Of a DNA stretch of 64,000 nt, positions 1 to 64,000 are shown one piece after another; position 1 is the first letter of the stretch, and each line of letters starts with the position of its first letter. Location of the stretch: positions 3,989,442 through 4,053,441 of the forward strand of contig NC_087392.1 in the NCBI RefSeq assembly GCF_963675165.1, in the 5' to 3' direction. Position numbers and translations under genes: made by a program. The notes under the pieces were generated by a model. It had not been told where the DNA came from and did not search any database. It saw only the letters and a program-made list of their open reading frames with translations. The DNA is from Halichondria panicea (taxonomy: Eukaryota; Porifera; Demospongiae; Suberitida; Halichondriidae).

Positions 1-890
1 TGGCAAAGCTCATGGGAAGATGGTCGTTCAACATCTCTGTCTTTGAGGCAGTGACGAACAATCGGCAGTAGAGGGTGGGTGGGCTCAATTAGTCTGATGT
101 GAAATTGTCTTCTATCTATCTCAGGTACTGGAACATACGCTCGAATTGCTTGATTCGGAAATTGTAGATCAAACACTTCTCTTGTTTCAAATCGATCAGT
201 TGGCTTTGGAAAGTGTCGAGTTGTGATCTGAACTAGCAAAACACCAAATGAGAAGTTGTCTAGATGCTCTGTGTACACTGGTGGTTCGTTTAGTGCCTCG
301 GGTGACATGAAGGCTGGTGTTCCCGGGCATGTGGTCATTGTAGCTAGTCGATTGACGTTTATGTCCCTGAATTTGGACATTCCGAAATCGGTGATTTTGG
401 CTCGACTGCCTGCAATCAGTAGGACATTGTTACTGGAGAGGTCGCGATGGATGATCCCATTGGAGTGGAGAAAGGTAAGTGCTTGAGCTATGTCATAGGA
501 GAGGTTGATTTGGATGTGATAGGGAATGTCTCCAGGTGATGACTCCAGGAAGTGTGTCAGACTCTCGTCCATGAGTTCCATGAGAAGAACTGGTGCATTT
601 GTGTCGGGATCGCGATACGTCCCTAGGTACTGTACAATGTTGGGGTGGTTGATGCGACTCAGAAATGCACACTCTGTTTCGAATCTTCTAAACGGGTGTC
701 TATGTTCTTTGCCAGGATCGGGAGCAATCATTTGGAAGAGCACTGGATAGAGTAGCTTGGCAGCACAGAGTAGCTGGTCACACTTGGCTTTACACACTGC
801 CCCATAGGAGCCAGTACCAAGGGTGTCATTCTTGAAGAGTTGCACATTTTGGAAGATGTACTCTTGTTCACGGCCATTTCTATCAGCCAT
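1..890 (-). CDS. Protein kinase of the kinase/coiled-coil/Kelch family (copy 1), 3' part off the window
   Basis: The frame is open from ATG at 890 to the left edge without a stop, giving about 296 residues of kinase domain. Visible motifs are a glycine loop (GTGSYGAV), the VAIK-type lysine in CAAKLL, the catalytic loop HRDLSSNN, DFG, and the SPE motif before subdomain IX (DNFSFGVLL). It is nearly identical to the complete paralogue at 12,829-15,060, so a coiled coil and Kelch repeats are expected beyond the edge. Unlike copies 2 and 3, it reads through the VERPSS position where those have a stop. It is probably a serine/threonine or TKL-like kinase; the substrate is unknown. The sequence shows no lesion, but whether the whole gene is intact cannot be judged. 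Confidence 0.85.
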   Translation of the reverse strand, partial: MADRNGREQEYIFQNVQLFKNDTLGTGSYGAVCKAKCDQLLCAAKLLYPVLFQMIAPDPGKEHRHPFRRFETECAFLSRINHPNIVQYLGTYRDPDTNAPVLLMELMDESLTHFLESSPGDIPYHIQINLSYDIAQALTFLHSNGIIHRDLSSNNVLLIAGSRAKITDFGMSKFRDINVNRLATMTTCPGTPAFMSPEALNEPPVYTEHLDNFSFGVLLVQITTRHFPKPTDRFETREVFDLQFPNQAIRAYVPVPEIDRRQFHIRLIEPTHPLLPIVRHCLKDRDVERPSSHELC

Positions 891-1346
891 TGTTTTAGGT
901 TTCCTTACTAACCAAACATACTAACCAAACCGGCTTTGCAAATTATACAGCTGTATTTTAATTTTTCAGTTTAGAGTAATTATTAACAGTTTGTTTTCTC
1001 ACTATCTCATATACACATACAAACGTTTTCATTTTTCATTCTGTGGACTGAGTCAATTCCCCCTTGTGTTTCATATAATTATAAGGTCGCTTTGCAAATA
1101 ATTATGTGGAAGGTTATACGTTAGGCTGTCTCAGAATGAAATGCATAACGATAATAAAGGACTGGAATGTTTCCATAAGTTTGCAATTGCAATAGCAGTT
1201 CTTAATAGGTGTATACAGTCTATTTGTATCCTCTGTAAAATGTGACTGGCTAACTATTATTGTGATGCTATCAAAATCGTAAAATACTAATGCACACTTT
1301 TTGAACGTATTTGTACTACATACTGAGCACCTCCTATCCACTACAG
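891..1346. other. AT-rich spacer, no gene seen
   Basis: This is the upstream flank of kinase copy 1, about 450 bp. Its right part (about 1,315-1,346) matches the intron end found before the SMARCAD1-like exon at 15,303, including the words catactgagcacc and ccactacag. It appears to be old intron sequence. Confidence 0.6.
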
Positions 1347-1540
1347 ATGATGAGCTCAACAAGAGGATGGACGAATGGTGGACCTTCGCCAGGCCGCCAA
1401 CCATCCCCTACTTCTGAGACACCACTACACTGACGACACCCTATATACACTGCATGGTGGGGGCCATCCTAAAAGGAGTCCAGTCACAGATGCTCATCCT
1501 AACCTGCATGGTGTGGGAGCCTCTTCCTCAGAGGGTGAGT
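1347..1540 (+). pseudogene. Decayed SMARCAD1-like SNF2 helicase exon (copy a)
   Basis: A canonical acceptor (ccactacag) is followed by an exon encoding MVDLRQAANHPLLLRHHYTD, with stops and shifts before and after. The peptide matches the RK-ANHPLL-R-YYT segment of SMARCAD1-type SNF2 chromatin remodellers, between the two helicase lobes. A sister copy at 15,303-15,540 is longer and keeps the next motif. A premature stop (CTTCTGAGAC) in one frame and a shift after the TDDTL motif mark it as a relic. No other SMARCAD1 exon lies in the right order nearby, so it is almost certainly not translated. Confidence 0.7.
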
Positions 1541-1734
1541 GTACACTGCACGTTGAGTTTGTACGACAATTAGACAATTTGTCGCACATTTTTTTGCTCA
1601 GCTATTAAAATAAGAAAATATACACCAACGAAATTACTCGCTATGCAGCAACTCTTAACAAAACAATTTTGTTCGTGTACAGTATACTATACAAGAAGAA
1701 CAAGTTAGGCACTATGCAAAGTAATATTTCACAT

Positions 1735-3362
1735 TTTCTTAGTGTATGATTTCCTCCCACCACCATCAGTTTGTTCCCAGGAATGACAGCAGTTAGGCAC
1801 GATGATCGAGGTGTCGACATTAGGCTGACAACAGTCCATGATGTCATGTTGTACTGATATAATATTATGTCCTTATGTCTATTAATGGAGTAATCCCTCC
1901 CACCCACTGCCAGCAAATGGCCATTGACAGTAACAAGAGAGGACCAGCTAACTGGCAAGGTGGAAATCTTCTCCCATATAGCTGAGCTTGGCTTGGGACT
2001 GAGTTAGTTGTCTTAATGATAATGAATGCTTCTCTTGATCATCATCAGCTCATTGGTGTATGTACACATAGTCTCCACAGATCGTTGTTGATGGTTGATT
2101 GGTACAGGTATGGAGCTAACAATATACCATTGCATGACAATATTAACAGTGTTTAATATTTCGACAGTAGTTAAAATGTTTGAATCACGTGATCCCTCAG
2201 CCACTACTAGTGTGTTGTTAGTGTACACAGCTCCAGATGTCAATCGTCCAGTTGGCATGGGAGGGAAGTGTTTAACCCATTTGTTGCTATTGTAGCTGTA
2301 TAGAGTTTATTACTATAGCGCTGTGTGTCTGACCGTCCCCCCACAGTTGTGAGCATTTCATCAATGCAGACAATAGCGAAGTACGTGTTAGGGCAAGGTG
2401 GTAACTCATGCCAGTGATTTTTGCTTAACTCAAGAACAGTTTTACTTGCACCTGACTTGAAGTATGCCTTGTCTCCAATCACGGCTGATGATCCATACCT
2501 CATATTATCAGGTGCATCAGGTAGTGACTCTATTGTAATAGGTTTCATTGATGTAGCTGGTCTTCTATTTTGTAGTGCAACTTGCAATAAATGAATTGGT
2601 GCATTCGAATCGATGAATCGTGAATTTCCTCGTTTTGCTTGCCAATGTTTGTCTCAGTTGAGTCACTTCTCTGTCTCGTTGATCGATAGTTTGTCGGAGG
2701 GCAGCAGTGTTCTCCTCACTTAATTGCAACTCTTGGTTGAGTCTCCTCAGCTGTCTCTACCTGGCTTCAGCCTCGTGTTGAAGGGTTTGGTTTTCTCGTG
2801 TTGCTTGGCCTAGTCTTGCAGTTAGTTGACCAATTTCAATGTAATTTGTATGTAACTGCTCATTGTTTTGTTTTATTGTCTCTCTATTTGTTTGTGCTTG
2901 TGTGTCTTTCTCCGTAATTTGCTCATTCTTTTCTGTTATAATGTGTTGATTTGCTTGCATGTAGTTGTTCATCTTTCTCTCTGAGCATCTGGTGCAGGTC
3001 TTGTTGAGAGCTTTCTTGGTACTGTGGTGTCCTCTTGAGAGCATCTATAGTGTTTGGCAAAGCTGTTGGGAAGATGGTCATTCAACATCTCTGTCTTTGA
3101 GGCAATGACGAGCAATCAAAAGGAGAGGGTTGGTTGGCTCAATCAGGCTGATGTGGGCTTGTCTTCTGTCTATCTCAGGTACTGGAACATACGCTTGAAT
3201 TGCTTGGTTCGGAAATCGCATCTCAAATACTTCTCTTGTTTCAAATCGATCTGTTGGCTTTAGAAACTGTCGAGTTGTGGTCTGAACTAGAAGCACACCA
3301 AATGAGAAATTGTCTAGTTTCTCTGTGTACACTGGTAGTTCATTTAGTGCCTCGGGACACAT
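1735..3362 (-). pseudogene. Kinase/coiled-coil/Kelch pseudogene (copy 2), 5'-truncated
   Basis: Homology to the 743-residue paralogue begins abruptly at 3,362 inside the kinase C-lobe (MCPEALNELPVYTEKLDNFS) and continues through the coiled coil (about 3,045-2,650) to the Kelch end near 1,738. The kinase N-lobe, glycine loop and catalytic loop are missing. A TGA replaces the CGA/AGA arginine codon of DRDVERPSS at about 3,077. Several frameshifts split the Kelch part into three frames (2,587-2,240, 2,258-2,013, 1,958-1,740). The same TGA occurs in copy 3. It cannot encode a working kinase. Confidence 0.85.
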
Positions 3363-4347
3363 GGAATATCAAATGTTGTTTAAGTGGATTCGCAGAGAGT
3401 AAAAAAAACTATAGTGAATACACAAGTATATAAACATCTATAATTATATACATGATCGAAATCGGTAAGGTTGTATACGCGTCGTCGTATGGATGCATGA
3501 CATTGTTGAATTCTAGATGCTTTTGTTTTGTTGAGAGGGGTAGGATCTGGTTGACTTGCATTTGTTCTTACAAGCTTTTTGCTTCACATCCTAAAAAGAC
3601 AATCACTTTAAAAAACATGCAACAGAACTGCATTCAAGAATTTTGTGGTACAGACGGCCCTCACATGGTTATATGCACCGATTGAAAAAGAACAACCCCG
3701 TCTAGCTCTACAACCGAAGTGAATATTTCGCACGTAAAGCCAATGGAAAAATGCTGATGTCGTCCTGTCAAGAGCAGATTCTGCATCAAACTACTTTTCT
3801 AAGTTCCCTTTCACGCTGAAAAAGAAAGGAGGTATGTAAGAGACTTGGAACATTGTGTGTCTATCGTTTGTTTGTTAATTAAGTAAATTTGTGACGTCAT
3901 GCCAGTCTATAAGCATGGTTAGTTTTTTGGTGTGCCACGTGGAGCTTGAAAGAGAACTGAAATAATTAAGAACTGTTGTGTGTCTATGTCTTTGCGTGTT
4001 GGCCGGCTCTGTTGACTGTCTCTATAGTTAAAAAGTCAAGCTACCAGTGACTAGCTAGTCCTACATAGATTGTTCTATCCGCTCGGTGACATCCACATGA
4101 TGTCGTATTAGCATGCTGATAGGCCGGGCACGCCCAGTAAAGAGTGGGCATTGAGTGAGTACGTGGGACAACTCCACACTGTTACCAGACCCTTCTTCTA
4201 GTGAATAGGCGTGGCTTGCAAGACTAAATTATTGTGTTTTTCAGCAAACAAAATTAATGTTTATTTGCTCTTTTCTCGTATACAGTTCACAATTTTTACT
4301 ACTATGCTCCCCCCACCCCCACCCCCACACCTTGCACACCCCACAAA
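3363..4347. other. Unassigned intergenic sequence
   Basis: No coding pattern or clear repeat ends were recognised. It starts exactly where kinase copy 2 is broken off, so 3,362/3,363 is a rearrangement junction. A C-rich tract (4,303-4,330) lies just before the SMARCAD1-like exon. Confidence 0.5.
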
Positions 4348-4545
4348 GAGTGGACGAGTCGAGTTCCTATTACCAGAAGCAAGTGAGACAGGCCAAGCAG
4401 ATAATGACACCCTTTACACTGCAGAGGCTCCAGTCACAAGTACCGAGTCAGCTCTCAACCAAAGTATCCAGTACGAAGTATTGTCAGCTGACGGAGACTC
4501 AGTGGAGGGGCGTGATGAAGAGGTCATTCAGGGTCAATAAGGGCC
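4348..4545 (+). pseudogene. Decayed SMARCAD1-like SNF2 helicase exon (upstream exon)
   Basis: After a C-rich tract and an AG, the + strand encodes a peptide containing QVRQAKQIMTPFTLQRL and KYCQLTETQ. This corresponds to the SNF2 segment around the AKQI-KPF-LRR motif of SMARCAD1, which lies just N-terminal of the ANHPLL exon found at 1,347 and 15,303. Downstream the frame runs into a stop at about 4,583 without a clear donor. Kinase copy 3 lies on the opposite strand immediately after it, where the following SMARCAD1 intron would be. Assignment is from remembered family motifs. Confidence 0.6.
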
Positions 4546-4965
4546 GACATGGTGTTAGGAGACCGTGGTTAGTTTGTGTGGGTTAGTCGTAAGAGATGCA
4601 GTGGGTGTGGTTTGATTTTCAGAGATTGCTTCCGTTCATAGTCCCTCAAACATTGTGTGTTGTACTTGTAAAAGCCTTGTTCTCATGCTGATTTTTTTGC
4701 TATGTCGAAAAGTACGACCTACTTTAAGGTATATACACTGCTTCCGCATGCGCAAATAGCACAAAATATTTAAGCTAAATGCACAGGCACATTACGTGAC
4801 TGTTGTTGAGCGTAGTTTTTTGGCGCATCAATATTTGCCGAGTGGTTTAATTATGTGGTAGATCTAGACCAGCTGGACTGGAGTCAGTTTTTGCTGATAT
4901 TTTAATTAACACATTAACTTACTGACTTATACTGTTTGATATTACAATAAGACACAAAGAACAAG

Positions 4966-7218
4966 TTAGGCACTATACACAAAAGTAGCTATTTCACATT
5001 TTCTAAGTGTAACATCTCCACCCACCACCATCAGTTTGTTCCCTGGGAGGGCAGCAGTGAGGCAAAATGATCGAGGTGTTGACATTTGACTAATGACAGT
5101 CCATGATGTCATATTATTGTACTGATATAATATTATGTCCTTAGTTCTGGAGTTCACTCCACCCACTGCCAGCAGGTTGCCATTGACCGTAACAAGAGTG
5201 GAATCGCTAACCGGCAAAGGGGCAATCTTCTCCCATATAGCTGAGCTTGGCTCGGACTGAGTTAGTTGTTTTAATAAGCATTTGTATACTGAATACTTCT
5301 CTTGATCATCATTAGCTCGTGAGTGTATGTACACATAGTCTCCACAGATCGTTGCTGATGGTTGATGACTTCACACCGGTAACGGGGTACAACTGGACCA
5401 TTGCTTTTCCTCCGTGTTCAGTATCTCTACAGTAGATAAACTAACTAGATTTACTCCCCCTGCCACTACGAGTGATTTGTTAGCATACACAGCTCCTGGC
5501 TTGTCCCGTTTAGTTGGCATAGGAGGAAACTTGTGTTCAACCCATTTGTTGTCATCGTATTTGTACAATGGATTACTAGATTGATTTGTTCCTGATTGTC
5601 CCCCCACAGTTGTGAGTACGTTATCAACACTGACAATAGTGAACAATTTGTTAGGGCAAGGTGGTAACTCCAACCAGCGATGGTTGCTGTTTAAAGTATA
5701 AACAGTATTATTTACATTTAACTTAATGTATGTCTTGTTTTCGATCACAGCTGATGATCCATGAATCATATCCACATCTGTTGTAGTTAATGGGTCCCAT
5801 GTCACTTCAACAGGTTTTTTTAGTATAGCTTGAGGTTGTTTCTCCTTATCTTCATGTGCAATTTGAGTCGATAAATCGGGAATTTCCTCGTTTTTCTTGA
5901 CAAAGTTTGTCTCAGTTCAGTCAATTCTCTGTTTCGTTGATCGATGGTTTGATGTAGGGTAGCAATGTTCTTCTCACTTGCTTGTAACTCTTGGTTGAGT
6001 CTCCTCAGCTGTCTCCCTGATTTCAGCCTCCTGTTTAAGAGTTAATTTGTCTTGCTGGAGAGATTGCTTTTCCGTTTTCTTTGCATTTATCTGTCGGTCT
6101 TTAGCTGTGATTAGCTTATCTTTTTCAGTTATAATATTTTCGTTTGTTTGTAGCTGTTCATCTTTAGCTTTTATTTGCTCATCTTTTTTTCTTACTAGCT
6201 GTTGATTTGTTTGTAGTTGTTTGTTTTTTTCTGTTATAAGCTGTTGTTTTGAGTGTAGTTGTTGATCTTTTTCTCTGAGCATCTGGTGCACGTCTTGTTT
6301 GGAGTTTTCCTGGTACCGTGGTGTCCTTTTGAGAGCATCCAGTGTTTTGCAAAGCTGTTGGGAAGATGGTCATTCAACATCTCTGTCTTTGAGGCAGTGA
6401 CAAGCAATCGGCAATAGAGGGTGGGTTGGCTCAATCAGGCTGATGTGGGCTTCTCGTCTTTCCAGTTCTGGAATTGTTACTTTAGTTTCAGATGGATTTT
6501 GTGGATATGAAAGTTGAATACTTTCAATTGGCTTTGGAAATTGTCGAGTTGTGATTTGAATTAGAAGCACACCAAATGAGAAGTTGTCTAGTTTCTCTGT
6601 GTACACTGGTGGTTCGTTTAGTGCCTCGGGTGACATGAAGGCTTGTGTTCCTGGGCATGTGGTCATTGTGGCTAGTCGGTTGATGTTTATGTCCGTGAAT
6701 TCGGACATTCCAAAATCAGTGACTTTGGCTCGAGTGCCTGCAATCAGTAGGACATTGTTGCTAGAGAGATCGCCATGGATAATCCCATTGGAGTGAAGAA
6801 AGGCAAGTGCTTGAGCTATGTCATAGGAGAGGTTGACTTGGATGTGGTAGGGAATGTCTCCAGGTGATGACTCCAGGAAGTGTGTCAGACTCTCGTCCAT
6901 GAGCTCCATGAGGAGAACTGGTGCATTTGTGTCGGGATCACGATAGGTCCCCAGGTACTGTACAATGTTGGGGTGGTTGATGCGACTTAGAAATGCGCAC
7001 TCCGTTTCGAATCTTCTAAACGGGTGTCTATGTTCTTTACCATGATCGGGAGCAGTCATTTGGAAGAACTCTGGATTGAGTAGCTTGGCAGCACAAAATA
7101 GCTGGTCACACTTGGCTTTACACACTGCCCCGTAGGAGCCAGTACCAAGCATCTTGTTTTTAAAGAGTTCAACCTTTTGGAATGTATACTCTCGTTCATG
7201 GTCTTGTCTCTTAGCCAT
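4966..7218 (-). pseudogene. Kinase/coiled-coil/Kelch pseudogene (copy 3), full length but broken
   Basis: ATG at 7,218 opens a 282-residue kinase domain that ends at a TGA (6,370-6,372) replacing the arginine codon of DRDVERPSS. Beyond it the family coiled coil continues (6,291-5,974), then a 2-bp loss near 6,016 shifts the frame. Kelch segments follow in two more frames (5,805-5,371 and 5,334-4,966). The catalytic loop reads HGDLSSNN instead of HRDLSSNN, so the HRD arginine is lost; K and DFG remain. The intact copy is one exon, so the breaks are lesions and not introns. A truncated 282-residue pseudokinase could still be made from the first frame. Confidence 0.85.
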
Positions 7219-7770
7219 AGCTACTAAACTTGTTAGTACAGTTTTAGTTATGTCACAGTTTTAATGTGCACAGTTTTAAGCTAGCTAGAAATTTGGGTGA
7301 ATTATTTTGTGTACGTGCTTTTTGGGTGTGTTAGGAATTTGCAGTTTATTCATGAGTGATTTGCATCATGTTGTACCATGGTTACGTTAATAATGATTAT
7401 AATTATGTTTTTTGTTCGCCTTTTTGTGTATGTCATTGTGTATGTCTTTTTACCACATACTGAGCACCCCTATATCCACTACAGTTGATTGCTAATGGGC
7501 GTAATGGTTGTAATATCTTAATAACCGTTGGGTATATTTCAGTTGACAAAAACCATATTAGTAACACGAGGGAGAGCTACAGCTAGCTGCGCATGTGTGC
7601 ACAAAACCATTGAATAAATACAGAACGTAATATAACAAATACTACACTAAATACAAAAACATATTAACTAATTAAGGATATATATAATTATGTGAGAGCT
7701 ACAATAATTACAAAAATCGAAGTTCGTTCAGTTTGTACTATAACCTCACGTATTACCGTAATAGTTCAGC
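7219..7770. other. Spacer with a SMARCAD1-like intron end but no exon
   Basis: Positions 7,452-7,486 repeat the catactgagcacc ... ccactacag acceptor region seen before the SMARCAD1-like exons at 1,347 and 15,303, but unrelated sequence follows, so the exon has been lost. The remainder is AT-rich and featureless. It ends at the C-terminal end of the gypsy pol frame. Confidence 0.55.
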
Positions 7771-8426
7771 CGTTGTTGAGATCTTCCAGGGTATGTTTTT
7801 CGGGGAACCTGGTCAGGGGTTTAAGGTGCATCCCCAGAACTGGGAGTTTCACTGTTGATGGAGTAGCAACGGTATCGTGGAACAGATCAAGATCAGCGAA
7901 AGTGTCTACATCAGTGGCATTGTTATCGAATTCGTTATCCAGTTCATTAGTTTCGTTCGCGAGTTCGTAGGATCTGGAACCTTTAGCTTCCTTACATGGT
8001 CTTGATGACGTCGGACCAATCTATTGTCATGGAGTCTGACCATAATTATAGGAAACTGGTCCGGTGACTTTTTCTATAGACCTTGATATCCACTTGGGGC
8101 CTGTGCCAAACCCTCTGACATACACACTCTCTCCCTCTCGGAAAACTCAGTTACGATTTGAATCATGAGCATGCTTCTGTTGTGATTGTCGTTGTTCGAC
8201 TTGCCTAGTCAAGCTGGGTGTTAACATGTCTAACCGTGTCCTGAGACGTCTACCTTGCAGTAATTCTGCCGGTGTCACACCAGTAGTACTTTGAGGGGTC
8301 GCTCTGTACGCCATCAAAACCTCGGCCAATCGTTCCTCCATTGCACCAGCAGTTACTTTCTTTAGGCCTTTTTTTACGATTTGAACGGCCCTTTTTCGGC
8401 AAGCCCATTAGTGGCAGGGTGGTATG

Positions 8427-9229
8427 TAGCCTCGGTCCCAGGCCGATTTTTTTTTAATAGAACGAAGTTGAAAAACACGGCCTGGTATTGATTGTATCTG
8501 GGCGTGGCAGGAACAGGAAACAAAAGCAGAGATTCTTTACATTTTGTTTCCTGCTTTTTTTCTGTAATACTAAAGGTGTACGTAGAGGCATTTTACTCCC
8601 GTAAAAGTTACAGTAATTTAGCTCCGTGTCATGTTCTCAATTTATAGCTAGCTAGCTATGGCATGCAACACATTGTCTTGTTTGAAGCAAGATGGCCTCA
8701 CTCTCATGGCAGAACAGGCCCAGGCTCTCAAGCTCCTGTTTGAGGGAAGGGACGTGTTTATCTGGTTCCCAACAGGGTATGGCAAGTCTCTCTGCTATAT
8801 CAGTTGCTACCCTTTTTAATGGACTACAAGCTAGGTAGGACCAAGGCTCCTCCTGTTGACAAAAGTGTTGTTCTTGTTAATTGTCTCTCCCCTTGTATCT
8901 CTCATCATGAGACTCATGATTGACCAGATCAGGAGTCTAAACAATAGAGGTGTTTCTGCTGCCATCCTCAGTAGCAATAAAGGAATCGACAAAGATTTGG
9001 TTGCCACTGCCAAAGAAGTGTCTTCTGGGAAGTATTTCCTGCTGTATACTGCCCCAGAGGCTGTTGTTGAAGACCACTGTTGGAGGATTCATTTTTTGTT
9101 GTACCACAAGTCAATTTGTTTTTATGTATTAAAAAACCACGCCCAGATCACGCCCAAATACAATCAATACCAGGCCTAGTAGGCGACCTAGCGTTCAATT
9201 GGAGACGGATCGGCCTGGGGTCGAGGCTA
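8427..9229. mobile_element. MULE-like TIR element (803 bp) carrying a RecQ-helicase fragment, nested in gypsy integrase
   Basis: Termini are inverted: TAGCCTCGGTCCCAGGCCGA at the left and the reverse complement of TAGCCTCGACCCCAGGCCGA at the right. A perfect 9-bp direct repeat GGTGGTATG flanks it (8,418-8,426 and 9,230-9,238). Removing the insert and one repeat restores the gypsy integrase words SAPYHPATNG, proving the insertion. A second, inner pair of inverted repeats (about 8,482-8,515 and 9,133-9,175, CCTGGTATTGATTGTAT) brackets the helicase fragment. A 9-bp duplication with TIRs fits the Mutator/MULE superfamily. No transposase is present. Confidence 0.85.
8659..9105 (+). pseudogene. RecQ-like DEAD/H helicase N-terminal fragment inside the TIR element
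   Basis: ATG at 8,659 opens a frame with the Q-like lead-in, Walker A motif PTGYGKSLCY, then after a frameshift near 8,815 motif Ia (VSPLVSL) and LLYTAPEAVVED. These are the first roughly 150 residues of a RecQ-family helicase; DEAH and the second RecA lobe are absent. It lies wholly within the 803-bp TIR element, so it is either a captured host fragment or the remnant of an element-encoded helicase. It cannot be active. Confidence 0.75.
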
Positions 9230-11764
9230 GGTGGTATGGGGCAGAAGAGATGTGTTTGATGCCAGTGTTTGTCAGAAACGTTTCAAACTCTTCGCTTACA
9301 AAACAAGGCCCATTATCGGTAACAAGTGTTTCAGGTAGGCCAAACTGAAAAAACAAAGTTTTAGCGATGTGGATGACCGTACTGGAGGTGGCTGAATTCG
9401 TCGGGTATGCCTCAATCCATTTCGAGTGTGAATCGATGACGATCAGGATCATTTTGCCTTGAAACGGGCCAGCAAAGTCCATATGTAGTCGAACCCATGC
9501 AGGGTCTGGATGGCCAACTCCATGGTTGCAGTGGTGTTGCTGGTGGATCCGGCTGTTGCTGTTGACATGGTACACACTGTTGTATGGATTTCTCGATGTC
9601 GGAATCTAGTCCTGGCCACCAAACGTACATTCTGGTGAGTGCCTTCGTCCTAGTCATCATATCTGCATGGGTGGCCTTCGTGAAGTTCTTGGAGAACCGC
9701 TTGTCGGCCTTGCGGTGGTACAACCACCCGAGCTCCCCATAAAACACAACCTTGGTAAACTGACAGTTCTGTCTGTTTTGAAGAAAAAACGGATAATTCT
9801 TTGCTGGTTTCTCGAGGCCAACCGTGTTCGATGTAGTCTTTCACTTTTCGCATCTGCATTTCCGTGGTCCTGAGTTTTTCAAGGTAATGGAGTACTCGTA
9901 TGCTGACAGTAGCAATGACCACCTACGAATTCGAGCAGAAGCCTGAGCCGATGTGGGTTTGTATTGATGCAACAAGGATAACAATGGTTTGTGGTCCGTC
10001 ACCAATTCAAAACAATGTCCAAACACATATGAATGAAACTTTTTTACCCCAAAGACCAGAGCCAAGGCTTCTCGCTCTATCTGCGCGTAGTTGCATTCAG
10101 CTTTCGACAATGATCGAGACACTACCCAATTGGTCTTTCCAAACCGTCTGGCATGCGGTGTGCCAGCACAGCGCCTATCCCATAGGATGAGGCATCACAC
10201 ATGAGGAGTACAGGTAAGTCGGGGTTGAAATGCACCAATAATGTGTCTTTGGTGAGCAACGTCTTCGAATTGTTCACGACAACTAACTCTTTTAATTCTT
10301 CGTCTAAAGGCAGTTGCAAATATGCTTGGCTTAGATCTAGCTTTGTAAAGGCTTTTCCACCAGCCAGTTTCACAAACAGGTCTTCTACTCGCGGAATCGG
10401 GTACTTATCCAACTTTGCCACCGGATTTACCGGTTGTTTGAAATCCCCAAATGCGCACCCTTCGTTTGTCTGGTTTAAGAACTGCAACAATTGGGGTTGC
10501 CCAGTCTGAATGTTCCACTGGCTCTAGGGTACCCTTTAACACAAGTTTTACAAGTTCAGTTTCCACCATGTCCCGATAAAAATACGGTACACTACGTGCT
10601 CTGAGGAACCGTGGGGAGGAATTTTGGCCTTAAACCCCTTTGCTGTTCCTAGGTCAGAGCCAAACACAGTCCTGTGTTTCTCCATTAGATCGTTAAGGGC
10701 AGCGTTCTGTAACCAAAAAAGTTCGTACCAATTCAACTTCATATCTCTTCAAGCCAATTTCTGCCCAGCAAACTAGGGCCCTCCCCTTTTACAATAAGCA
10801 ATGGAAGGGTCACTTCTTGGCCACCGTACTTTACCCGCACATCTACTGTACCCAAAACTGGGATGGACTCACCCGAATATGAGTGCAGTGTGATAGTCGA
10901 TGTGGCCAGAGTTGCTATCGGCCACTGGTTATGGAAGGTCTGTTCAGACATCAATGTTAGCGACACACCTACGTGTCAATTTCCATATGTACCGGTTTTC
11001 CGTCAACTTGGCTGTGAATGGCTTAGTTTTCTTCGAGGAGTTAATTGCGAACAGTTCATATTCGTCCTCACTATCAGTGCTCTCGGTGACATCATCTTCC
11101 ATCTTGTGTACCTGTCGGTCAGTACTTGTGAGCGACACATGGTATTGAGATGGCTTTTCCTCCCGCAGTTATGACAGATTGCCTCCTTGTACCGGCATTC
11201 GTCGCGTTTATGACCAGTTTTTCCACAACAGAAACAATTTCCAGTAAACTTCTGTGTTCGACCGGTCACTCGACCAGCTCTAGGGACCTTGTGAGTTATC
11301 CTTTGCGTTCTTAGTCGCCGTTTCCATGCCTTGGGCGAGGTCAATGGTCTTTACAAGTGTGAGTTCTTTTTCAGCCAGTAGTCTCTGCTGAAGCTTGCTA
11401 CTGTTGATCCCACAGACAATTCTGTCTCTCAGCATCTCGTTCAGGGAGGCATCGAAATTGCAAAATTCGGCTAGAGCCCTGAGTTCAGCCACAAAATCAG
11501 CTATTGTTTCTCCTTGTTTCCTTACGCGGCTATGAAACTTAGCACGTTGTACTGTCTCCGATGGTTTTGGATTGTAATGTTCCTGGAGCAGTGCTACTAG
11601 TTCTTCAAAAGTCTTGTCACCCGGTTTAGCAGGGGACACCAGGTTCCTTAACAGAGAGAAGGTCGACGGTCCCACGACAGCTAAAAACACACTTCTCTTC
11701 TTTAGCTGACCACATGCAAGACGCTTTCAGCCACAGACCAAGAAAGATGTGAGGACATCTTAGG

Positions 11765-12085
11765 TATATGACTGGATATTATTGCAATTCGTTCAGAACT
11801 ATGCTTCAATTGCCAAATCGCTAACTGAACTGACAAAGAAGAGTTTGCCAGAGAATATAGAGTGGACAGAGAAAACCAAATTAGCGGCTGAAGAAGGTAC
11901 TCGTATCTGCTCCACTAATGAAGAACCCTGTTTGCTCTGACATTTATCTTGCAGACAGATGCTTCGGGAGTTTTAATTTCATGGTGTAACATTGTAAAGG
12001 ACAAGCTAACGCCAATGTTAATGCCCTCTCGCGATTGGAGAATGGCAGCAATTCGTACCAGGGAAGGAGGGAGGAAATGTGACAG
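11765..12085 (+). pseudogene. Second Ty3/gypsy fragment (RT end and RNase H end)
   Basis: On the opposite strand to the main gypsy element, a broken frame encodes QFVQNYASIAKSLTELTKKS followed by IEWTEKTKLA, typical of the RT connection region. Then, at 11,999-12,070, comes GQANANVNALSRLENGS, resembling the G-x-N-x-x-A-D-A-L-S-R end of gypsy RNase H. The RNase H body is missing between them, so this is an internally deleted relic. It abuts the gag end of the minus-strand element. Confidence 0.7.
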
Positions 12086-12828
12086 ACTCTCTATTTAAAC
12101 GAATAATGCTAGATTACTTATTAGTGCTAGATCTAGATTATGAGAACAAAACACATGCTAGGGTTTTATGTGTCATTGGGTCTTAATTGAAGTTTTGAGT
12201 GCTAATGAGTCAACCTGTGACAGTTTTACGTTAGTAAGCCTTGGTAAAATTATAATGTACACTTGTTTGTTTATTACCTTTTCAAATCAGAAAGACCTTC
12301 TCTAGAGAGCTAGGGTGAGTGATTCGATAGGAGGTTGCCCTTGAGTCATTTTGAATTAGATAGTCCAATTTATGCATGGAAGCTTACTTTTAAAGAGAGC
12401 TCTTTTAAAAGATGCATACAAGAGTCAAAAGAGCAGCCATTGTGAACTCTCGGACCTCTTTGCAGATCATTAAATTATATCATTGACAGGAAATGCAATA
12501 TTGTAGATCTATACATTCTTCTATCCTTGAAAGTCACATCAATAGATCAGATATATAGACTTCTGTCTTCAGGCTCCTTTTATAACACTCTTGGTTAATG
12601 TATAATTATGCAATCAGTGGCTCTCGGGCCTAAGTTACTACTGAGCCAATTTCTATAACTTCTTGAGCAAAGTAAAACAAACCGAGAAGCATAGCACAGT
12701 GCAGCTTACAACATTCATTGTTGAAGTAGAGTTACAATTATCACATTCAAATTTCGATACTATAATTATACAGATATATATACAGATCGATACTATAATT
12801 ATACAGAACAAGTTAGGCACTATGATTA
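12086..12828. other. AT-rich spacer, no gene seen
   Basis: It contains a short direct repeat (gatactataattataca at about 12,756 and 12,789) just past the kinase copy 4 stop. Otherwise no feature was recognised. Confidence 0.5.
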
Positions 12829-15060
12829 TTATTTTACAAAAGTAGCTATTTCACATTTTCTAAGTGCACCATCTCCTCCCACAACCATCAGTTTGTTCCC
12901 AGGCAGAACAGCAGTGAGGCATTCTGATCGAGGTGTTGACATTTGACTAACGACTGTCCATGATGTCTCGTTGTACTGATATATGTCCTCAGTTTCATCT
13001 CCATTGGAGTCCAGTCCACCCACTGCCAGCAAGTGGCCATTGATGATAACAAGAGAGGACCAGCTAACTGGCAAAGGGGCAATCTTCTCCCATGTAGCTG
13101 AGCTTGGCTCGGACTGAGTTAGTTGTCTTAATGAGCATTTGTATACTGAATACTCCTCTTGATCATCACTAGCTCGTGGATGTATGTACGCATAGTCTCT
13201 ACATATCATTGATGATGGTTGGGTGATTGGCACAGGTAGTGAGCTAACACTAGACCATCGCATGTTCACAGTTTTTAATATTTCGACAGTAATTAATTTG
13301 CTTGAATCACTCCATCCTCCAGTCACTACAAGTGTGTTATTAGCGTAAACAGCTCCAGGTGTCCACCGTTTGGTTGGCATGGGAGGAAAGTGTTCGACCC
13401 ATATGCTGTTAATGTAGCTGTAGAGTTTGTTACTAAAGAGTTGTGTGTCTGATGTTCCCCCCACAGTTGTGAGCATGTCATCAACACTGACAATAGTGAA
13501 CTCCCAGTTAGGACAAGGTGGTAACTCGTGCCACATGTTGTTTCTGAACTCATAAACAGTTTTATTTCCATTATTAAAGTACGCCTTGTCTCCAATCACG
13601 ACTGATGATCCATACCACATATCAATAGGTGCATCAGGTAGTGACTCTATTGTAACAGGTTTCATGGGTGTAGCTTGAGCTTGTCTCTCATCTCGTGGTG
13701 CGACTTGGTGCATTCGAGTCGATAGATAGTGGATTTCCTCGTTCTTGCTTGCCAACATTTGTTTCAGTTGAGTCACTTCTCTGTCTCGTTGATCGATGGC
13801 TTGTTGGAGGGCAGCAGTATTCTCCTCACAGGATTGCAACTCTTGGTTGAGTCTCCTCAGCTGTCTCTCCCTGGCTTCAGCCTCTTGTTGGAGAGTGTTC
13901 ACCTCATGTTGGTTTTCTTGTGTTGCTTGGCCTAGTCTTGTAGTGAGTCGACTAACTTCAATGTCCATTGTATGTAGCTGCTCATTGTTTTGTATTATTG
14001 TCTCTCGATTTATTTGTGCTTGTGTGTCTTTTTCCTTAATTTGCTCATTCTTTTCCGTTATAATCTCTTGATTTACTTGTAGTTGTTCATTTTTTTCTCT
14101 GAGCATCTGGTGCAGGTTTTGTTGGGAGCTTTCTTGGTACTGTGGTGTCCTCTTGACATCACCCAGTGTTAGGCAAAGCTGTTGGGAAGATGGTCTTTCA
14201 ACATCTCTGTCTTTGAGGCAGTGACGGGCAATCGGCAGTAGAGGGTGGGTGGGTTCCATCAGGCTGATGTGGGCTTGTCTTCTCTCTATCTCAGGCACTG
14301 GAACGTTGGCTTGAATTACTTGGTTTGGAAATTTTGGATCAACTAGTTCTCTTGTTTCAAATGGATCTGTCGGTTTTGGAAACTGTCGAGTTGTGATCTG
14401 AACTAGAAGCACACCAAATGAGAAGTTATCTAGTTTCTCTGTGTACACTGGTGGTTGCTTTAGTGCCTCGGGAGACATAAAGGCTGGTGTTCCCGGGCAT
14501 GTGGTCATTGTGGCTAGTTGAGTGCTGTTTGTGTCCCTAAATTTGGACATTCCAAAATCAGTGACTTTGGCTCGACTGCCTGCAATCAGTAGGACATTAT
14601 TGCTGGAGAGGTCACGGTGGATGATCCCATTGGAGTGGAGAAAGGCAAGTGCTTGAGCTATGTCATAGGAGAGGTTGACTTGAATCTGGTAGGGAATGAC
14701 TCCAGATGTTGACTCCAGGAAGTGTGTCAGACTCTCGTCCATAAGCTCCATGAGAAGAACTGGTGCATTTGTGTCGGGATCGCGATAGGTTCCTAAGTAC
14801 TGTACAATGTTTGGGTGGTTGATACGACTCAGAAATGCACACTCTGTTTCGAATCTTCTAAATGGACGTCTATGTTCTTTGCCAAGATCGGGAGCAGTCA
14901 ATTGGAAAAGCACCGGATAGAGTAGCTTTGCAGCACAGAGTAGCTGGTCACACTTGGCTTTACACACTGCCCCGTAGGAGCCAGTACCTAGAGTGTCGGT
15001 CTTGAAGAGTTGAACATTTCGGAATACGTACTCCTGTTTATGGTCTCGTCTCTCAACCAT
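12829..15060 (-). CDS. Protein kinase with coiled coil and Kelch repeats, 743 residues (copy 4, intact)
   Basis: One uninterrupted exon. Residues about 15-290 form a kinase domain: glycine loop GTGSYG (25-30), lysine 45 in CAAKLL, HRDLSSNN (148-155), DFG (168-170), SPE (196-198) and D211 of DNFSFG, so all catalytic residues are present. Residues about 310-470 are a heptad-rich coiled coil full of E, K, Q and N. Residues about 480-743 carry Kelch-type beta-propeller repeats (ELPPCPN...TTVGG, FPPMPTKR...VVTGG, APLPVSW...LAVGG, STPRSE...MVVGG). The architecture suggests a kinase oligomerised through the coiled coil and recruited to partners by the propeller; substrates are unknown. There is no signal peptide or membrane segment. 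The lack of introns, unlike most neighbours, suggests an origin as a retrocopy or a naturally single-exon family. Confidence 0.9.
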   Translation of the reverse strand: MVERRDHKQEYVFRNVQLFKTDTLGTGSYGAVCKAKCDQLLCAAKLLYPVLFQLTAPDLGKEHRRPFRRFETECAFLSRINHPNIVQYLGTYRDPDTNAPVLLMELMDESLTHFLESTSGVIPYQIQVNLSYDIAQALAFLHSNGIIHRDLSSNNVLLIAGSRAKVTDFGMSKFRDTNSTQLATMTTCPGTPAFMSPEALKQPPVYTEKLDNFSFGVLLVQITTRQFPKPTDPFETRELVDPKFPNQVIQANVPVPEIERRQAHISLMEPTHPLLPIARHCLKDRDVERPSSQQLCLTLGDVKRTPQYQESSQQNLHQMLREKNEQLQVNQEIITEKNEQIKEKDTQAQINRETIIQNNEQLHTMDIEVSRLTTRLGQATQENQHEVNTLQQEAEARERQLRRLNQELQSCEENTAALQQAIDQRDREVTQLKQMLASKNEEIHYLSTRMHQVAPRDERQAQATPMKPVTIESLPDAPIDMWYGSSVVIGDKAYFNNGNKTVYEFRNNMWHELPPCPNWEFTIVSVDDMLTTVGGTSDTQLFSNKLYSYINSIWVEHFPPMPTKRWTPGAVYANNTLVVTGGWSDSSKLITVEILKTVNMRWSSVSSLPVPITQPSSMICRDYAYIHPRASDDQEEYSVYKCSLRQLTQSEPSSATWEKIAPLPVSWSSLVIINGHLLAVGGLDSNGDETEDIYQYNETSWTVVSQMSTPRSECLTAVLPGNKLMVVGGDGALRKCEIATFVK

Positions 15061-28593: not shown

Positions 28594-30217
28594 ATGGCAT
28601 ATCCTCAGCTTCATGTAACGTTTGGCAACAAGCATTTTGCTGAGGGCCGCTTCAGAAGAGCCTACAAGGGAACCTATAAAGGCCCACCCAGCAAGTATGG
28701 CGACTCGGCTGTAGTTATGCCTCGAGGCGTAGCCGCACGAGGGATACGGTAAAGCTGACTGTGTGTGTGTCTGTCTGTGTGTGTGTGTGTGTATTCCAGC
28801 TATAACTGCTCAACGGTTGCAATGTAACGAAAACTAACAGCTTCTATAGGCTTCTAGCCACGTTCTCTTGGATTTTGATTCGTGGATTAGCAAACTAAAG
28901 CTTCTTTCTCGAGTTATGGCTAGTTTGACTCACATTGAAGGCTGTTGCAGTCTCTTCAGAATCTTTCATAGCATCATCTGTCCGCACAAACTTTCTATTC
29001 AACATATGAGTTAGCCTTGCACTAAAGCGCTAGCTTTTTGTTAGCTACAATACTCAGAAAATATCTTTTAAAACAGCTCGCTAGCAGTAGCCATTTGTGA
29101 AATTGATCTCTTTGGACACACCCTTTAATTATTCCTGTGGATGTAATGCGCATGCGCGCTCATTCCCCAAAAATAATATCCCAAGATCCTCCTGGCAGAA
29201 TCATCTTTGTCTTGAGGGCCTGGTATATAAGCCACATAACACTACCATATAACAATATAGATAACAATATGCATGTACACAGGTCTTTTCTTCTTAGATA
29301 TTATATACACTGAACTACAGATCCTGGAAGAATCAATTTTCTTCTTTCTTGAGATCCTGGTAAGCCACATAATACAACAATAGATGCATGAAAATAAGTC
29401 TTTTCTTCTCAGTGACTTTATATAGATAAGCTAACTTTAATACTAATATAACACTCTAATACTTTTAAGCGAAAGCAAAAACATGGCGAGAGGCATTAGC
29501 ACAGCGCCAGCTTGAACACTAGTTAAAGAAAGCAAAGAATCGTACATGTGGAAATCTACAGACTGGAATGTCACTGTGGAAATGCACAAAGAAGCGCAGA
29601 AGCTTGCAGAAGGATTCAACCGTTTTTCTAAGACCAATTTCCCTTTGAAATTCACCGATGTTGACGTTGTAATAATAACAGAAACTAACACCCCCGACTC
29701 CACTCCTAAGCTGAATGAGTACTGTGTTGTTGAGGACTACATACCAGGACAGTTCAACAAGTGGTGTAACAATTACGGTTTCATTTCAGCTGAAGCCAAG
29801 AGCTCCAACTCCAGTATGCCTGCCTTCATGCACTGGAGTTGGTGTCACTCAAATGGAGAGAAAATGATCTCAGACCTGCAAGGTGTTCGCAGTGATGACC
29901 CACAATCTTACACCCTTACAGATCCTGCTATGCTCTCCCTAACTAACAGCTATGGAGTCACTGATATGGGAGTTGAAGGAATGGCGATGTTTTTCCTGCA
30001 TCACGAGTGCAGCTCATTTTGTGAGAGATTGTCTAAACCCAAAAAAAGCGATTTCCTTGGAGTTATTCCAGACAGGCAGCTCTCAGCTACTATGCAGCAG
30101 TTAAAGAATCTTGGAGATGCAACGACGTACACTCACGAGCTCAAGTTCCCCCCTGGAGTGAGGGAAGGCATCACAACCGTGTTCAGGAGAGTGGCACGTG
30201 GTGGATACGTATACTGA
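28594..30217 (+). pseudogene. Alpha-kinase gene split by a transposon insertion
   Basis: ATG at 28,594 encodes MAYPQLHVTFGNKHFAEGRF and continues to GDSAVV at 28,711, where an element of about 800 bp interrupts it. Coding resumes in the right frame at 29,520 (VKESKESYMWKSTDW) and ends at 30,217. The second part has the alpha-kinase hallmarks FNKWCNNYGF, ISDLQGV, LTDPAM and YGVTDMGVEGM, and the zinc-site HHECSSFC. The parent protein would be a single-domain atypical (eEF2K/MHCK-type) kinase of about 265 residues. The 223-residue downstream frame has its own ATG (29,549) but lacks the N-terminal strand region. I found no splice pair that would remove the insert in frame. Confidence 0.8.
28718..29519. 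mobile_element. Family B non-autonomous element (TGCCTCGAGGCG) in the alpha-kinase exon
   Basis: A second copy lies at 44,278-45,003 and a truncated relative at 49,583-49,960. Shared landmarks are TATGCCTCGAGGCGTAGCC at the left, ACTGCTCAACGGTTGCAATG after a (TG)n tract, and CATGGCGAGAGGCATTAGCA near the right. TAGTTA at 28,712-28,717 and 29,520-29,525 forms a target duplication. No protein is encoded. The termini are only weakly inverted. Confidence 0.75.

Positions 30218-39087: not shown

Positions 39088-64000
<24,913 letters not shown>

Follow-up and report, generated by a model that had tools for sequence, protein, structure and literature searches.

A stretch of 64,000 nucleotides from the sponge Halichondria panicea (the window; contig NC_087392.1, here C16, C16:3989442-4053441) begins with an array of intronless genes that join a protein kinase domain, a coiled coil and a Kelch propeller in a single chain. 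We consider it likely that these genes belong to a birth-and-death family of soluble receptor kinases, in which one face of the Kelch propeller would recognise diverse, probably non-self ligands. As judged from the coding sequences, selection conserves the kinase and diversifies the propeller face. The C16 family, as we call it, combines the sequence features of diversified recognition receptors, namely birth-and-death evolution, a ratio of non-synonymous to synonymous substitution rates (dN/dS, ω) above 1 at the presumed binding surface and a conserved part that is predicted to signal. The genome searched was the 131.5-Mb assembly of 39 contigs. Wnt exons at three of its loci (10 matches, against none among 14 prokaryote controls) mark it as that of an animal.

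The gene array in the window

A first-pass annotation of the window had proposed four intronless copies on one strand, and all four were found, on the minus strand. The copies and the parts of copy 4 lie at the following window positions:

890-1 (1..890), minus strand: copy 1, the kinase part of an intact gene of 727 residues that extends leftwards beyond the window
3362-1725 (1725..3362), minus strand: copy 2, a relic that has lost residues 1-194, begins at residue 195 and runs through several frames with stops
7218-4978 (4978..7218), minus strand: copy 3, a full-length relic with four in-frame TGA stops and HGD in place of HRD
15060-12829 (12829..15060), minus strand: copy 4, an intact intronless kinase–coiled-coil–Kelch gene of 743 residues
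14176..15000, minus strand: protein kinase domain of copy 4, residues 21-295 (PF00069, E 2e-38), with K45, HRD148 and DFG168 kept
13705..14127, minus strand: coiled-coil helix of copy 4, residues 312-452 (141 residues), with most 10-residue blocks at a predicted local distance difference test (pLDDT) of 82-92 in a single-sequence fold
12832..13626, minus strand: Kelch propeller of copy 4, residues ~479-743 (PF24681, PF13964, PF01344), which carries the 19 diversified sites described below

The annotation had read the single copies correctly. Copy 1, which it had called intact as far as seen, forms an open frame of 727 residues once traced beyond the window edge. Copies 2 and 3 are dead, the former truncated and frame-broken, and copy 4 does hold a kinase, a coiled coil and a Kelch part in 743 residues, as seen from Pfam domains plus the modelled helix, with its catalytic residues (K45, HRD and DFG) present. 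The coil is the sole confidently modelled stretch of the single-sequence fold. The six blades of the propeller are our own count, and Pfam Kelch motifs run from about residue 505 to the end.

What did not hold was the description of one intact copy among relics, the single survivor of a small local family. Four further open copies were found within the 25 kb read to the left of copy 1. The joined 41 kb (C16:3964501-4005441) contains eight copies on one strand, of which six are open and two are relics, and the cluster belongs to a genome-wide family.

When the copy 4 protein was scanned with Pfam to E 0.01, models for BTB, BACK, F-box, NACHT, NB-ARC and LRR were not found, and an NCBIfam scan returned only general kinase and coil models, far under their cut-offs. 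Given these missing domains, we place the family neither with the KLHL (BTB-BACK-Kelch) proteins nor with the NLR/STAND receptors. The 19-residue hydropathy mean of copy 4 peaks at 1.44 at residue 665, within the Kelch part. A strong membrane segment was not found by hydropathy in any of 39 genes of the family, in which the maximum reaches up to 1.63; by this measure the family would not belong to the membrane receptor kinases.

A genome-wide family with conserved kinase motifs

The search with query P0001 gave 80 matches that were merged by hand into at least 57 loci, a lower bound with the 60 best candidates scored. Forty-one of the 57 loci lie on C16 between 3.76 and 5.70 Mb and the remainder on nine other contigs. 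From 36 sources, picked with regard to open frames and after 10 partial or broken match rows had been set aside, we obtained 39 frames, each uninterrupted and 657-855 residues long; one of these, C12_4041m, has no ATG within the stretch read.

The ATP-binding lysine (K45) and DFG are kept in all 39 frames and HRD in 38, the exception being C9_3673p, which has HCD for HRD and a gapped glycine loop. By these motifs (VAIK lysine, HRD, DFG) the kinases of the C16 family are predicted to be active members of the protein kinase superfamily. By sequence, their best natural matches among solved structures are CTR1, TNNI3K, BIK1 and IRAK4; the N-terminal kinase appears to resemble tyrosine-kinase-like (TKL) kinases. 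Protein identity averages 88% over the kinase of 28 close members; it is lower over the coil (70%) and the Kelch part (73%).

Selection on the kinase and on the Kelch propeller

Codon models were fitted to 26 genes, two near-identical ones of the 28 having been dropped. For the kinase, model M0 gave ω 0.30, and the comparison of M1a with M2a gave twice a log-likelihood difference (2ΔlnL) of 9.8 with 2 sites. For the Kelch part, the same comparison gave 2ΔlnL 417 (p2 0.088, ω2 5.67) with 20 sites at P>0.9; rerun without the final residue, which is present in few genes, it gave 2ΔlnL 413 with 19 sites above 0.95. With the Kelch data placed on the kinase tree, 2ΔlnL was still 473. Copy 4 itself, for which the annotation had named dN/dS as a check, gave an overall ω of 0.36-0.48 when compared with nine close members (kinase 0.14-0.33; Kelch 0.43-0.70). 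In a young subclade of six genes at 5.4-5.7 Mb, ω rises from 0.26-0.27 in the kinase to 0.56 in the coil and 1.09 in the Kelch part.

The signal was also seen in tests that use no tree. Sites picked in 20 genes had a ratio of non-synonymous to synonymous differences (pN/pS) of 2.80 in the 6 other genes, versus 0.88 in the rest of the Kelch part, and the two top-20 site lists of the hold-out splits overlap at 13 sites (P 1.4e-12). The 28 genes have 26 different sets of letters at the 19 model sites, and any two genes differ on average at 15.6 of the 19.

These results bear on an alternative in which the copies are neutral debris of tandem duplication and most of them are functionless. Copies 2 and 3 are indeed dead, and there are further broken or partial copies. 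Against this stand the six open copies among eight in the local array, the 39 open frames, the kinase ω of 0.26-0.27 and an ω well above 1 in the Kelch loops. We give this explanation hardly any credence: the selection results refute it for the family overall, and it stands for individual relics.

Within the kinase, residues 225-262 of the C-lobe show raised synonymous and non-synonymous change, with pN/pS of 0.35 and 0.61, below 1. In this segment, site 246 reaches P>0.9 on the kinase's own tree and nine sites exceed 0.95 on the wrong (Kelch) tree.

Position of the diversified sites on the propeller

In the Kelch fold, the d–a and b–c loops share one face. On a manual assignment of strands that follows the order of motifs, each of the 19 selected sites lies in a d–a or b–c loop; these loops cover 88 of the 264 positions (P 7.6e-11). 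A mechanical rule, which counts positions from the GG doublet and passes over blades that have none, places 13 of the 20 most variable sites of the C16 family on the same face (P 4.6e-6). Relative to the GG doublet, the most variable positions are -15, -14 and +2, and a broader rise spans +5 to +7. The variable offsets -15, -14, +2, +4 and +7 appear to coincide with the Nrf2-contact positions of Keap1.

Duplication of copies and exchange of segments

Flanking homology between copies was seen upstream in 119 pairs and downstream in 24; for many of them the flank was only about 150 bases long. Since upstream DNA is homologous among copies, they appear to have been copied by DNA duplication. Retroposition was considered as a copying route and is disfavoured, as the homology reaches into upstream DNA.

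One pair of neighbours is a mosaic. From codon 481 on, C16_3967 and C16_3970 are 95-98% identical in nucleotides, versus 79-93% in five kinase windows. In these kinase windows, C16_3967 is nearer to C16_3976 in four of five (with one tie) and C16_3970 is nearer to C16_3982 in four of five. Members have evidently exchanged segments at least once. The two genes differ at a single one of the 19 model sites.

Another pair, C16:4484318-4486531 and C16:4502512-4504725, is identical in all compared protein columns and 100% identical over 150 bases upstream and 147 bases downstream. It is either a very recent duplication or an assembly duplicate.

The annotation had compared the array with the birth-and-death evolution of receptor and immune families. 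This comparison gained support: duplication is both tandem and dispersed, relics lie beside intact copies, one pair of neighbours is mosaic and the Kelch loops show strong diversifying selection.

Other kinase/Kelch families in the genome

Three further families that pair a kinase with a Kelch part were found:

C1-type: L048, C1:15719500-15724000, 1743-4216; kinase exon, then Kelch exon; mostly on C1 (15.5-17.4 Mb) and C6
C3-type: L049 and L071, C3:1005000-1015000, within C3:0.87-1.72 Mb; kinase and coil share an exon, which is followed by a Kelch exon
C9-type: L050, C9:854000-857500, 724-3500; reversed order, with a Kelch exon followed by coil and kinase

The C1-type comprises 125 kinase loci, counted mostly by the kinase alone (125 of 126 kinase matches, one being a second piece). 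Among the matches listed, a Kelch part lies within 4 kb downstream of 38 of these kinases and upstream of 1, with none near the other 86; this comparison used 142 of the Kelch rows listed, and scattered single rows on other contigs were excluded by hand. In 20 open Kelch exons of contig C1, the codon models gave 2ΔlnL 577 (ω2 11.8, p2 0.134) with 23 sites. The recombination control for this family was the split-half test only, which gave pN/pS 3.87 versus 0.68. By the GG-doublet rule, 17 of the 20 top sites lie on the d–a/b–c face.

For the C3-type, about 56 loci were counted by us from rows of at least 73% identity. Its 18 open Kelch exons gave a split-half pN/pS of 2.32 versus 0.68, and 19 of the 20 top sites fall on the d–a/b–c face by the same rule. 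The C3-type is possibly an intron-bearing relative of the single-exon family. In the C9-type, 71 loci were merged by hand from 131 matches, omitting rows on C1, C3, C11, C13, C15 and C16, weaker C8 and C9 rows and second pieces. Among the Kelch matches listed, the Kelch part is upstream in 56 of these loci, downstream in 4 and absent in 11.

Where compared, the kinases of the families are about 28-35% identical, and the blade variability profiles of the C16, C1 and C3 types correlate at 0.85-0.91. Summed over the four families (57, 125, 71 and 56), there are about 300 loci, relics included. We lean towards the view that these ~300 or more loci form a separate recognition system of soluble, hypervariable-Kelch kinases with at least four architectures (one-exon kinase-coil-Kelch, split-exon kinase-coil-Kelch, kinase-Kelch and reversed Kelch-coil-kinase), that its size rivals that of the sponge NLRs, and that Kelch halves have been moved between kinase halves by gene conversion to give new specificities.

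It could be argued that the Kelch part guides the kinases to fast-changing internal substrates, in genome conflict or development, and that they are not receptors for foreign ligands. The lack of a strong membrane segment by hydropathy and the retention of the catalytic motifs would fit such a role. This explanation alone does not account for three separate families having diversified repeatedly at matching positions of the blade, and we judge it distinctly unlikely.

Proposed mechanism and the evidence that weighs against it

In the reading that we prefer, a ligand would bind the variable propeller face formed by the d–a and b–c loops, the coiled coil would gather chains together, and the kinases would then phosphorylate one another and signal downstream. 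Copies would be born via DNA duplication, could swap segments and would die, so that nearly each gene would hold its own set of contact residues. The likeliest ligands would be foreign or highly variable molecules, either microbial or involved in self/non-self distinction. The architecture, the size of the family, the kept catalytic motifs, the diversifying selection with its place in the blades and one mosaic pair are observed; ligand binding, activation by clustering, a cytosolic location and an immune or recognition role are what we infer.

Several points weigh against this reading. The M1a and M2a models were run with our own code, unchecked against a standard package. When the kinase data were placed on the Kelch tree, 2ΔlnL was 152 with 10 sites, which indicates that wrong trees can produce a false signal. 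The reverse hold-out was weaker, with pN/pS of 1.41 versus 0.54. The whole-length fold of copy 4 from the single sequence was poor (pLDDT 44.5), and the assignment of sites to a face therefore rests on strand order and motif register. In the split families, the joining of exons was deduced from order and strand, and the C1- and C3-type exons were selected among open frames. Finally, rapidly evolving self partners instead of microbes could drive the same pattern.

In another alternative, recombination or misalignment produced the Kelch signal; the mosaic pair C16_3967/C16_3970 and the wrong-tree value of 152 both speak for it. The maximum 2ΔlnL was 11.1 in six neutral simulations with two-tree mosaics and 19.7 in ten with heavy recombination; none of these 16 simulations thus exceeded 19.7, versus the observed 413-417. 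The hold-out tests escape the weakness of wrong trees because they are tree-free, and they concur with the split-half tests; moreover, three families peak at the same offsets. An artefact of this kind is in our opinion very improbable.

Comparison with known systems

The nearest working analogue is the HET-D/HET-E pair of the fungus Podospora, to whose family the C16 genes, with no NACHT match in copy 4, do not belong. According to excerpts of PMC1805685 and PMC2873952, positive selection acts on four WD40 positions of HET-D/HET-E, located in the d–a and b–c loops, and recognition is set by the WD domain. The HNWD/NWD genes (HET-D, HET-E and HET-R) resemble the C16 family in the diversified d–a and b–c loops of the propeller, in forming a multigene family and in the exchange between members (same excerpts). 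They differ in that they are fungal, combine WD40 with NACHT/HET and have near-identical repeats in each gene, whereas the C16 family is found in an animal, combines Kelch with a kinase and has distinct blades.

This likeness also speaks for an alternative in which the Kelch face reads a polymorphic self molecule, as in HET-D/HET-E, and the kinase triggers rejection or fusion control in allorecognition or in gamete/self recognition. The WD40 propellers of HET-D/HET-E share with the C16 family the positive selection in d–a and b–c loops, the exchange between members and the inactivated copies (PMC1805685, PMC2873952, excerpts), and nearly every C16 gene has its own residue set. Hundreds of loci in several families, however, suit many ligands better than one self marker, and we regard such a role as unlikely.

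The sponge NLRs (126 NACHT+LRR genes in Dysidea avara, according to PMC12909245) are alike in forming a big, species-specific receptor repertoire. They are unlike the C16 family in that NACHT and LRR were not matched in copy 4, and the main text of PMC12909245 does not contain the word 'kelch'. KLHL proteins and Keap1 share the Kelch propeller, with sequence matches to the structures of KLHL2, KLHL3, KLHL17 and Keap1, whereas copy 4 has a kinase and no BTB or BACK match, and the C16 family is hypervariable at the candidate contacts. The TKL kinases IRAK4, TNNI3K, CTR1 and BIK1 are unlike the C16 kinases, which carry a coiled coil and a Kelch part. Plant F-box/Kelch genes show lineage-specific expansion with a Kelch specificity domain; they have an F-box in place of the kinase, and copy 4 gave no F-box match.

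SRCR domains were very numerous in the whole genome, with 213 matches among the 150 candidates scored. SRCR is a receptor family said to be expanded in sponges.

Searches beyond this genome

The annotation had regarded the architecture as unusual among animal kinases, and this stands as far as we searched, namely in the open-access literature, viral contigs and a kinase-seeded scan of prokaryotes. A kinase–Kelch receptor family was not found in titles and the starts of abstracts of the open-access literature, which leaves room for an earlier mention. In excerpts of PMC6208332, unnamed "Kelch motif containing" genes shift their expression in sponges exposed to microbial patterns, and in excerpts of PMC11000336, Kelch propellers and kinase domains are among the differentially expressed families of a sponge; neither text, in these excerpts, states that Kelch and kinase are one protein. 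The word 'kelch' is absent from the main text of PMC4053784. The pairing of kinase and Kelch may be older than sponges, since a figure legend of PMC6993872 has Kelch among the domains drawn with choanoflagellate or filasterean kinases, the protein being unspecified.

Among viral contigs there were four pattern matches, none of which was confirmed as a relative. The prokaryote scan was seeded with two peptides, both from the kinase, so that a Kelch-only relative would be missed; it gave 72 loci, all confined to residues 1-323, which span the kinase and the beginning of the coil, at 34% identity or less, and none over the Kelch part.

Other features of the window

Four other features were noted in the window:

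9198-11726, minus strand, between copies 3 and 4: degraded Ty3/gypsy-like element with integrase core and RNase H-like pieces
29516-30214, plus strand: open frame of an alpha-kinase (PF02816, E 4e-39), an unrelated kinase type near the array
45643-47076, minus strand: one open frame with TRAF zinc fingers and a MATH domain, possibly a signalling adaptor
56961-57600: long GT-rich simple repeat, which gives rise to several artificial open frames

Direct or inverted repeats of at least 60 bases were searched for around the gypsy fragments and none were found.

Significance

In animals that lack antibodies, the recognition of microbes and kin is attributed to receptors of the NLR, SRCR and immunoglobulin types. 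The families described here look like an undescribed recognition system. They suggest that WD40 propellers in fungi and Kelch propellers in this sponge have diversified in the same two classes of loop, a point of interest for the evolution of recognition surfaces. If our reading is true, these kinases would add a recognition system near the root of the animal tree, with a specificity code of about 19 residues per gene, and this code would predict which members share ligands.

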